DNA from: Oscillospiraceae bacterium
GTDB taxonomy: Bacteria > Bacillota > Clostridia > Oscillospirales > Oscillospiraceae
Direction: 5' to 3'
Assembly (NCBI GenBank): GCA_017465625.1
Contig: JAFTVV010000013.1
Location: 1 to 64,000, forward strand
DNA: 64,000 bases
Positions within the stretch are counted from its first letter, which is position 1; each line of letters begins with the position of its first letter. Below the pieces are notes generated by a model, which had not been told where the DNA came from, made no database searches, and saw nothing but the letters and a program-made list of their open reading frames with translations. Below are positions 20,508 to 63,389 of the stretch, in pieces. Both the position numbers and the translations under genes were made by a program.

Positions 20508-20990
20508 ATGGAATTACCGAAACGAAAAATAAATCGGCTGGCAGACTATGATTACAATCAAAATGGTGCGTATTTTATAACCATCTGCACCCAAGACAGA
20601 AAACCTATTTTGTCACAAATCGTAGGGGACGGGTCTCCCGTCCCGAAAACTGCCGGATTGATTGCAGAAAAAACGATTATGCAGATCACAGAAAAATATC
20701 CTTCGGTATCGGTGGAAAAACATGTGATTATGCCGGATCATATACATATCCTGTTACGGATAGACAACGGGACGGGAAACCCGTCCCCTACATTGGGAAA
20801 TATTATTGGTTGGTATAAATATCAGGTTACGAAAGAGGTAAACAGGCAGAACTACACCGCAGGTGAAAAACTGTTCCAACGTTCCTATTATGACCATGTG
20901 ATTCGTAATCAGCAGGATTACAATGCGGTGTGGGAATATATTGAGCAAAATCCGAGAAAAAGGATGATGCAAAATAATCGGTATAAATAA
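20508..20990 (+). CDS. REP-associated tyrosine transposase (RAYT, Y1/HUH family)
   Basis: 160-residue single-domain Y1-type transposase. N-terminal RLADYDYNQNGAYFITICTQ is typical of the RAYT group. The metal-binding HUH motif is HVIMPDHIHILLRI near residue 74, the candidate nucleophilic tyrosine is in FQRSYYDHVIRNQQDY near 125, and WEYIEQNPRK near 146 is the conserved C-terminal helix. Such enzymes act on REP palindromes with a GTAG foot. Two such palindromes sit in frame inside the gene, encoding VGDGSPVP and NGTGNPSPT, and four more lie within 5.5 kb. No second domain or partner gene. Two hairpins follow the stop. Confidence 0.88.
   Translation: MELPKRKINRLADYDYNQNGAYFITICTQDRKPILSQIVGDGSPVPKTAGLIAEKTIMQITEKYPSVSVEKHVIMPDHIHILLRIDNGTGNPSPTLGNIIGWYKYQVTKEVNRQNYTAGEKLFQRSYYDHVIRNQQDYNAVWEYIEQNPRKRMMQNNRYK
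20622..20644 (+). repeat. REP-like GTAG palindrome, unit 2 (inside RAYT gene)
   Basis: GTAG then GGGACGGG, loop TCT, CCCGTCCC. 23 bases, the only unit with its GTAG foot on the plus strand. It is in frame and encodes the insert GDGSPVP. Confidence 0.8.
20769..20791 (-). repeat. REP-like GTAG palindrome, unit 3 (inside RAYT gene)
   Basis: GGGACGGG, loop AAA, CCCGTCCC, then CTAC. Inverted relative to unit 2, so GTAGGGGACGGG at 20622-20633 and CCCGTCCCCTAC at 20780-20791 are a perfect 12-bp inverted pair 146 bases apart, flanking the HUH codons. Confidence 0.8.
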
Positions 20991-22942: not shown

Positions 22943-23293
22943 TCATTTGTTGTTCTTAGCAGTTTTAATGGAGGCGATTAAAAGAATACGAATTGTACTG
23001 CAAGTCTTGTCCAATGCTTTATACATAGGTTGATCAATATATCCTGTTTTTAAAAGCATTTCAAGCCATTTCCCTGTTTCGCTCGCCTCTTTTAAGGCTA
23101 TTTCAAGTTTAGCAATGAAATCTGCTCGGCTATGACCATATTTACTTTCCGCAATATTCGCACAAATGCTGGTCGCACTTCTTCCAATTTGATTGGAAAT
23201 AATTGTTTCGTGCTTGCTGTGCAGTTCTTTTACCAAAGCAAGGATATCCACAGATAACTGCATAGAAAGTGTTCCAAGCTTATCTTCCTTCAT
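22943..23293 (-). CDS. Four-helix-bundle protein (S23/IVP-Avd family)
   Basis: 116 residues with the start at 23293 (MKEDKLGTL), chosen from the AGAGGTGAT site upstream; the open frame extends into the hairpin array but without a site. The pattern SNQIGRSATSICANIAES near residue 40, then FIAKLEIALKEASETGKWLEML and a C-terminal helix, matches the family first seen in 23S rRNA intervening sequences and related to Avd, the accessory protein of diversity-generating retroelements. Family members form pentameric barrels, and Avd binds nucleic acid. The role of free-standing copies is unknown. The gene lies directly downstream of the array of ten hairpins at 23327-23545. Confidence 0.85.
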   Translation of the reverse strand: MKEDKLGTLSMQLSVDILALVKELHSKHETIISNQIGRSATSICANIAESKYGHSRADFIAKLEIALKEASETGKWLEMLLKTGYIDQPMYKALDKTCSTIRILLIASIKTAKNNK

Positions 23294-23326
23294 TAAAATC
23301 ACCTCTGTGCCGATATTAGCATAAAT

Positions 23327-23545
23327 TTGCGTAAAGCGCAACATCTCACGCGCAAGCGTGTGTTTGCATTGCAGACGCAACATCGTTTACACCGCAAGGT
23401 GTAACATCGTTGATGCGAAGCATTACATCGTTTTTGACAAAGTCAAAACATCGTTTTGTGTCCGCTTTCGCGGAATGATGTTATCCTTCGAATAAATGAT
23501 GTTGACCGTAAACGGTCAAACGATGTTGTGTCCTTGCGGACACAA
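23327..23545. repeat. Array of about ten short hairpins with conserved ACATCGT separators
   Basis: Stems: TTGCG/CGCAA 23327-23341; CACGC/GCGTG 23347-23360; GTTTGC/GCAGAC 23362-23376; TTACACC/GGTGTAA 23387-23404; TGATGC/GCATTA 23411-23425; TTTTGAC/GTCAAAA 23432-23448; TCCGC/GCGGA 23461-23474; a degenerate TTAT/ATAA 23481-23495; TTGACCG/CGGTCAA 23502-23519; TTGTGTCC/GGACACAA 23526-23545. Loops are mostly 3-5 bases (GCAA twice). ACATCGT separates them at 23380, 23404, 23425 and 23448 (ACATCTC at 23341). The separators then invert to ATGATGTT at 23475 and 23496 and ACGATGTT at 23520. The stem sequences are unrelated to each other; the period is 21-27 bases. Confidence 0.85.
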
Positions 23546-23550
23546 ACACA

Positions 23551-23584
23551 AAAAAATTCCAAGTCTTACGACTTGGAATTTTTT
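23551..23584 (-). terminator. Terminator of tRNA-Thr
   Basis: A 15-bp stem, 23551-23565 with 23570-23584, loop TTAC, with A/T-rich outer ends giving a U-run immediately after the tRNA on the minus strand. Confidence 0.88.
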
Positions 23585-23660
<76 letters not shown>

Positions 23661-39723: not shown

Positions 39724-39762
39724 ACAGCTGTTACAAAAATAATAGATCTGCAACAATACTGC

Positions 39763-39930
39763 ATCGATAGCGCTTCACAAAATACATTGTGACAGTTCGG
39801 CAGATATTCTCTGACGACCCAGCACCGCACATTCAGGCATCTGCGGCACTTCGGCGGTATCCCCTTTCCTCTTCTGCGGTTGCCTGACCTTGCAGAAAAG
39901 TACTGATGAATCCCGCGCCTCTATCAAGGC
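39763..39930 (-). ncRNA. Lysine riboswitch (L box)
   Basis: Minus-strand leader with the conserved lysine-aptamer pieces in order: GATAGAGGCGC (39925-39915), TCAGTA, AAAGGGGATACCGCCGAAG (near 39867-39849), GCTGGGTCGTC, and the closing CTATCGA (39770-39764) that pairs with TTGATAG (39927-39921) as P1. A P5-like hairpin TCACAA/TTTGTGA lies before the P1 closure. Lysine binding would favour the terminator at 39701-39723 and switch the transporter off. The GGGG/GCCGAAG core and five-helix order distinguish it from a T-box, which I considered first. Confidence 0.88.
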
Positions 39931-39945
39931 GATTAGTTTTTCCAT

Positions 39946-63266: not shown

Positions 63267-63382
63267 GGCACACCAAGCTCGCACGAGTTCAGTGTGCCCA
63301 GACGGTCGGCATAAGTCGGCTTTTTACGATCTCCTGTTCCTTTGTGGTGCTCCACATCTTTCGATTTCCGTCAGTAGCAGGA
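63267..63382 (-). ncRNA. Probable ZTP (pfl) riboswitch and terminator of the pur operon
   Basis: The minus-strand leader between guaB and purE contains a 6-bp hairpin ATTTCC/GGAAAT, then GATGTGGAGCACCAC, GGAACAGG and GCCGACCGTCTGGGCA (63310-63295). The last element and the order resemble the pfl/ZTP aptamer that turns on purine and one-carbon genes when ZMP/ZTP accumulates. The terminator-like stem GGCACAC (63298-63292) with GTGTGCC (63273-63267), enclosing CTCG/CGAG and followed by TGTTTT, shares its 5' arm with the aptamer's UGGGCA end, so the two folds exclude each other. Assigned by memory of the motif, not by a covariance search. Confidence 0.65.
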
Positions 63383-63389
63383 AATGCTG

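Follow-up and report, generated by a model that had tools for sequence, protein, structure and literature searches.

A tRNA-linked hairpin array and its neighboring PF05635 four-helix-bundle gene as probable parts of one small element

The window analyzed here is the whole 64,000-nucleotide (nt) stretch at positions 1 to 64,000 of contig JAFTVV010000013.1 (assembly GCA_017465625.1) from an Oscillospiraceae bacterium. On its minus strand, a tRNA-Thr gene with its CCA end is followed first by a terminator-like hairpin and then by some ten small hairpins with a recurring word between them, promoter-like sequence and a gene of the PF05635/TIGR02436 family, whose product is referred to as IVP. The tRNA-Thr (GGT) gene, identified with ARAGORN and Rfam, occupies 23585..23660, with its CCA end directly 5' of the unit. 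The terminator-like hairpin, with 17-bp arms, spans 23549..23586 in the inverted-repeat listing; at comparable loci this hairpin belongs to the inserted unit, and one locus (L269) retains its native terminator upstream of such a hairpin. The array of about ten hairpins, delimited with a chain finder and by folding, covers 23327..23546. The IVP gene, located by profile search (22943..23293), encodes a four-helix bundle of 116 residues. Because a ribosome-binding site (23299-23306) precedes it, the ATG at 23293 is the likely start, and a 146-residue open reading frame (ORF) reaching into the array is too long. An earlier sequence-only reading of this stretch had the array right and omitted the tRNA-Thr gene and the terminator-like hairpin, which belong to the layout.

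The separators, read directly from the sequence, stand in one orientation and then invert. On the minus strand, the first half carries ACATCGT (23520-23526) and two copies of ACATCAT (23496-23502 and 23475-23481), and the second half carries the inverted word as four copies of AACGATGT (23448-23455, 23425-23432, 23404-23411 and 23380-23387) and one AGATGT (23341-23346). The plus strand accordingly reads ACATCGT four times, within the four AACGATGT intervals, ACATCTC once (23341-23347), ATGATGT at the two ACATCAT positions and ACGATGT at 23520-23526. The chain finder recovered ten hairpins between 23327 and 23545, with a hairpin score of 27.4 against a mean of 4.4 (standard deviation 2.1, maximum 14.9) in 500 dinucleotide shuffles. 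The folding-energy z-score was -9.0 as RNA and -8.2 as DNA, and none of 200 shuffles was equally low. Word positions, hairpin score and folding thus bear out the first description of some ten hairpins with ACATCGT separators that later invert. The minimum-energy fold pairs separators of the first half with those of the second, and the hairpins protrude on both sides. Clustered regularly interspaced short palindromic repeats (CRISPR) consist of uniform repeats in one orientation with spacers; here the separators switch orientation once and the inserts are hairpins.

The first hairpin (23527..23546) has a 5' strand, TTTGTGTCCGC (23536-23546), that can pair locally with 23527-23533 or with a distant copy mid-array, GCGGACACAAA (23455..23465, from the inverted-repeat listing), which is its complement. 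The near and far complements represent a possible alternative pairing. At the opposite end of the array, a sigma-70-like promoter (23313..23341), called by eye without a promoter scan, consists of TTGCGC (23336-23341), a 17-nt spacer and TAATAT (23313-23318); similar -10 boxes follow other arrays. The sequence-only reading had placed the array in the promoter or 5' leader of the gene. The last hairpin does overlap the -35 box, and because the promoter lies between the array and the IVP gene, the array is probably outside the leader of the IVP mRNA.

Matches to the PF05635/TIGR02436 profiles at 88.3 bits (cut-off 33.8) and 97 bits (cut-off 24) secure the original call of a four-helix-bundle gene. 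The structural model of the window protein has a mean predicted local distance difference test (pLDDT) score of 96.7 and, as modeled, the fold of the solved family members 2rld and 2gsc, which have five chains each. To our knowledge, IVP has no catalytic domain. There is no cargo gene close to the IVP gene of the window.

A PF05635 search of 61 congeneric genomes gave 97 matches, in 41 of the genomes, and 95 of the matches were read. A further 80 IVP genes on named genome contigs, the top 80 of 577 when ranked by similarity to the window protein, are weighted toward its subclade. A few of the 175 IVP genes examined are counted twice (L068 is L018 and L102 is L252; L258 and L263 are candidate repeats of L095 and L118). 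A same-strand tRNA gene ended less than 700 nt upstream of 85 of the 175, compared with 5 of 678 control ORFs. Other placements were opposite-strand upstream (1), same-strand downstream (4) and opposite-strand downstream (0). An order-level set, ranked by Pfam-profile score and not by likeness to the window protein, gave a same-strand upstream tRNA gene in 8 of 29 cases.

Sixty-seven tRNA-linked loci, which use 14 tRNA isotypes, were analyzed further (IVP match of at least 90 residues without a stop, at least 170 nt after the tRNA gene; at least one locus counted twice). At least five copies of one 6-7-mer occurred in 60 of the 67 loci versus 17 of 1340 shuffles, a single orientation switch in 56 versus 713, and both together in 49 versus 5. 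Hairpin arrays are therefore strongly enriched beside other four-helix-bundle genes, which is where the sequence-only reading had proposed to look. The recurring unit runs from the tRNA 3' end through the terminator-like hairpin, one-orientation separators, switch, inverted separators and promoter to the PF05635 gene. At L177, the array unit lies directly behind a transfer-messenger RNA gene and not a tRNA gene.

The separator varies with the protein. Separator similarity tracks IVP identity (Mantel r 0.64; 0 of 2000 permutations). When IVP proteins of different genomes were at least 65% identical, their loci shared a repeated 6-mer in 272 of 403 pairs, and in 233 of 356 pairs with differing tRNA isotypes; below 50% identity, 62 of 606 pairs did. 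The eight same-genome pairs had separator similarities of 0 to 0.24. The separator follows the IVP subclade, and units within one genome carry different separators, contrary to the initial expectation of a genome-specific word. The array and the IVP gene are inherited jointly, as one unit. Because they vary together in this way, the suggestion that the array is the binding target or the mobilized partner of the protein is the best-supported reading, and from these comparisons we infer a contact between IVP and the separators. Array stems vary through compensatory substitutions, seen in 19 of 57 and 16 of 40 predicted pairs, and the separators stay; in related arrays, the long-range helix formed by the first hairpin's 5' strand shows paired changes too.

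The array and the IVP gene are thus probably parts of one small, likely mobile element behind the tRNA gene, with the separators as predicted IVP contact sites and the hairpins as folded spacers. This reading is supported by the occurrence of array and IVP gene behind many tRNA genes, the mostly single switch, the separator that follows the subclade, the compensatory stems, the differing presence at orthologous sites and the gene-less copies. Compensatory changes would also suit a structured RNA device, in which tRNA read-through yields an array transcript that controls termination or IVP expression through alternative pairings and is bound by IVP for autoregulation, the unit spreading passively via ordinary recombination. 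Of the 86 upstream tRNA genes, 85 share the strand of the IVP gene. The 5' strand of the first hairpin has two complements, one near and one far, the far one backed by paired changes, and some tRNA-linked loci of the seven-base form described below (e.g., L097, L105), in which no promoter is visible by eye, may use read-through. We nevertheless consider such a device unlikely: most arrays read end ahead of a promoter-like -10 box (by eye), a terminator-like hairpin stands before the array, wobble pairs show no strand bias (G-T 7 vs A-C 3 in arrays, 28 vs 25 in tract pairs), and bracketed and plasmid forms have no tRNA gene. The lack of wobble bias leaves both RNA and single-stranded DNA as candidate targets, and it speaks neither for nor decisively against the processed small-RNA precursor that was also suggested at first.

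Comparison of related genomes provides further evidence for a discrete element. A near-identical locus in genome G104 (L359; 99% over 173 of 229 bases) lacks 39 nt holding two hairpins, between 9-nt direct repeats; in the window this stretch is 23342..23380 (minus strand), its placement being ambiguous inside the 9-nt direct repeat. Hairpin gain or loss between strains, a comparison proposed with the first description, is therefore seen. At a tRNA-Gly locus, G009 has the array and IVP, G053, whose flank is 95% identical, has neither, G131 has an array alone after a second CCA, and G030 has the unit and a second array 94% identical to that of G009, with flanks 86% identical. The window's own array type has few relatives. 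One lies behind tRNA-Cys with IVP (L363), and others, with no IVP in the fetched stretch, lie behind tRNA-Cys (L361), tRNA-Thr (L362) and tRNA-Gln (L364). Arrays unrelated to the gene had been named as a sign against the association, and the gene-less arrays beside tRNA genes (these three and L269) are part of that sign; they resemble remnants of the same element or copies of it without the gene.

Units can also be stacked. Behind the tRNA-Leu gene of L074, two complete units and a degenerate third follow one another, every unit having separators of its own. An ORF of at least 70 residues starts near the IVP stop in 44 of 68 tRNA-linked genes (the 67 plus the second L074 IVP; counts without a chance-neighbor control), at a -1 overlap in 13 of the 44 (two of the 13 being one locus). 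Eight of ten such ORFs scanned had Pfam matches of varied kind: three GNAT, DUF4279, nucleotidyltransferase, methyltransferase, HAD and AAA, the AAA match below cut-off. Such units and ORFs would suit arrays that act as folded recombination sites of cargo cassettes stacking behind tRNA genes, served by a recombinase in trans with IVP as an accessory. However, 24 of the 68 genes have no such ORF, and neither does the window nearby, which makes a cassette system rather improbable.

The second form of the locus has no hairpins. Where it lies away from tRNA genes, the IVP gene is often flanked, on one side or on both, by mutually complementary period-7 repeats. Lag-7 tracts were found in 120 of 369 IVP flanks versus 8 of 346 distant chunks, and other lags in 0-2 of 369. 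Five units were present in 60 of the 120 tracts, four in 26, six in 16 and more in 18. Across 187 loci, tracts lay on both sides in 39, on one side in 42 and on neither in 106, a group to which the array type belongs. Elsewhere, 464 kb of sequence scanned at a lower threshold yielded 7 tracts and 1 inverted pair. The order-level set gave lag-7 tracts in 17 of 57 flanks and other lags in 0 of 57; nine of its ten loci that lack both tract and tRNA gene were read by eye, eight having arrays and L163 only a weak repeat. At least one of three signs (heptad tract, same-strand tRNA gene, at least five separators) was found at 172 of the 187 loci.

The heptad form extends across phyla. At twelve plasmid loci, hand-chosen among 32 records matched, lag 7 outscored the other lags from 5 to 10 in all 24 flanks; the loci come from Cyanobacteriota, Spirochaetota, Bacteroidota, Chloroflexota and Bacillota, and a sixth phylum is represented by a single contig, titled Verrucomicrobia (L248). 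Plasmids of Nostoc and Anabaena (L318, L319) carry a bracketed IVP between cas1 and cas2, which are 2 bp apart or overlapping in two relatives (L368, L369). The cas1 reading frame of L318 ends inside repeat sequence. A Pseudanabaena plasmid (L324) likewise has a heptad-bracketed IVP at cas1/cas2, beside or between them.

Gene-less copies of the heptad form are dispersed. With a purD-linked IVP locus as query, many short matches to both tracts were found elsewhere in related genomes, and the pieces read (L341-L352) are inverted pairs around loops mostly of about 10-30 nt, in gaps between coding sequence. AGATACNAGATACNAGATA occurred in 24 of 136 genomes and its backward control in none (hand count; genomes incomplete); among the 61 IVP-searched genomes, it was present in 5 of 5 with an AGATAC-type IVP. 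Dispersed gene-less inverted pairs are thus a feature of the AGATAC heptad type, the window's array type having the few relatives given above. The heptad-hairpin loops of L354, L355 and L357 enclose a dispersed repeat of greater length (GTCATTGCGA... type) or another palindrome.

Tracts and arrays might also arise passively near IVP genes, from slippage or folding-prone DNA and with no interaction. The 39-nt difference between 9-nt direct repeats is a typical slippage product, and slippage has been proposed for heptamers in the available text of PMC4679880. This origin is nonetheless highly improbable, as the enrichment is at lag 7 only and near IVP only, complementary tracts lie on both gene sides, separator identity follows the protein and the stems show paired changes.

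Under the favored reading of a small mobile element, the heptad tract and the hairpin array would be two forms of one recognition structure. In the heptad form, the gene would have about five cores, spaced at seven bases, to one side and the complementary tract to the other; in the array, the hairpins would hold the separators in register. Since five cores are most frequent in tracts, a five-subunit IVP ring may read five cores on a single strand, one core per subunit. Stems could drift by paired changes while separators stay because the spacers would fold away. A wider proposal, which we hold tentatively and regard as somewhat doubtful on balance, has IVP/S23 proteins reading five-core tracts as five-subunit assemblies and acting in trans for a cross-phylum class of mobile elements that lack any known transposase (dispersed heptad hairpins, bracketed IVP, tRNA-linked array cassettes with cargo). 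It would account for orphan heptanucleotide repeats and for how 23S rRNA intervening sequences (IVS) arose.

Several points weigh against the favored interpretation. IVP binding is a prediction, and the protein has no known catalytic domain with which to mobilize the element. Co-inheritance alone would yield the array-protein correlation without contact, and the wobble counts do not support a sense-RNA target. Exact separators, where counted, usually number 3-5 in each half and so do not always reach five. All three signs are missing at 15 of the 187 loci, which include L198 (titled Lentisphaerae) and L212 (Acholeplasmataceae); at 5 of these 15, the upstream sequence is shorter than 150 nt. 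AGATAC tracts are still present in 6 of 56 genomes without an AGATAC-type IVP match. At the purD site, relatives without IVP carry other heptad hairpins, so there is no clean empty site, and no target-site duplication was determined.

Additional features were observed at tRNA 3' ends. Stretches of about 100-200 nt behind tRNA genes start with a T-arm complement, hold about three conserved hairpins and end in a second tRNA 3' end with CCA (L126, L133, L134, L265, L267, L269, L270, L280, L281 and L284; similar in L085, L091 and L110); at L270 the terminator is duplicated as well. They look like a separate small element inserted at tRNA 3' ends. At heptad loci behind tRNA genes, the inter-tract loop contains an 11-18-nt exact complement of the tRNA CCA end and terminator arm, reaching CCA with at least 11 nt in 7 of 16 loci (L095, L100, L104, L114, L220, L233 and L243); a guide or target copy is possible. 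In the window's own genome, L299 (C32:1-20000) has no IVP match but two heptad-hairpin elements, one behind tRNA-Arg and one behind tRNA-Ala; the latter is nearly identical to the L004 element behind tRNA-Ser. In L005 (own genome, C9), the IVP gene has ATATCGA-type arrays on both sides and no tRNA gene, with a tandem partial second copy of the gene start and array. Elsewhere in the window are an IS200-like Y1 transposase gene of RAYT-like size (PF01797, Y1_Tnp; 20508-20990, plus strand), 2 kb from the array, and, from Rfam, a lysine riboswitch (39760-39931) and a ZMP/ZTP riboswitch (63289-63388), both on the minus strand.

Among known systems, REPIN/RAYT elements are dispersed short inverted pairs, some with a matching-type protein gene; RAYT is a Y1 transposase and the palindromes are GTAG-tagged. 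The present elements share the dispersed short inverted pairs, only some of them beside a matching-type gene, but IVP is a four-helix bundle without known catalysis, the repeats are five-core heptads, and the partner of the array by co-variation is IVP. Integron gene cassettes, which are defined by an attC site and an integron integrase, have a foldable site next to a small cargo gene, a likeness that extends to the stacked units of L074, whereas each present unit has a multi-hairpin site, its own promoter and an IVP gene. IVP is 8% identical to Avd of diversity-generating retroelements (structures 4dwl, 8ub7), and fold similarity to Avd alone is insufficient for membership in these retroelements; no template/variable repeat was seen in the loci read, and no reverse transcriptase search was made.

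The 23S rRNA IVS carry an S23p/IVP gene in inverted repeats and are called selfish, of unclear function and origin, in the available text of PMC4990558. They share with the present units the protein family and, in bracketed relatives, the enclosure of the gene by complementary terminal repeats; the window has both halves upstream of the gene. The present units differ in adjoining tRNA genes or sitting between protein genes, in their heptads or separator-hairpin arrays and in their dispersed gene-less copies. A further trait of IVS elements is excision of their RNA by RNase III. The window unit lies behind tRNA-Thr and not in a 23S rRNA helix, no IVP locus among those read lay in rRNA, and Rfam found no rRNA in the window. 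What is new is the combination; with more weight on the protein and inverted ends shared with IVS elements, the units could fairly be seen as a variant of known elements.

Orphan heptamer repeats (TAACTGA and others) occur in Beggiatoaceae, Cyanobacteria and Bacteroidetes, with S1, Csp and Csr proteins proposed as binders; the available text of PMC4679880 describes them as direct repeats with no known binder, and the terms "four helix" and "S23" are absent from its main text as available. Within the openly accessible literature searched, no publication joining IVP to heptamer repeats was found. If IVP recognizes arrays and tracts, the orphan seven-letter repeats of many bacteria would gain a protein partner, and this cross-phylum link would merge two puzzles, the role of IVS/S23 and the heptamer binder, as these stand in the available texts (PMC4990558, PMC4679880). 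The plan of variable hairpins and fixed separators would exemplify spacers folded away so that a ring protein reads fixed contact points. If the elements move, they would do so without a recognized transposase, and the tRNA-linked form would be a new kind of structured site at tRNA 3' ends.
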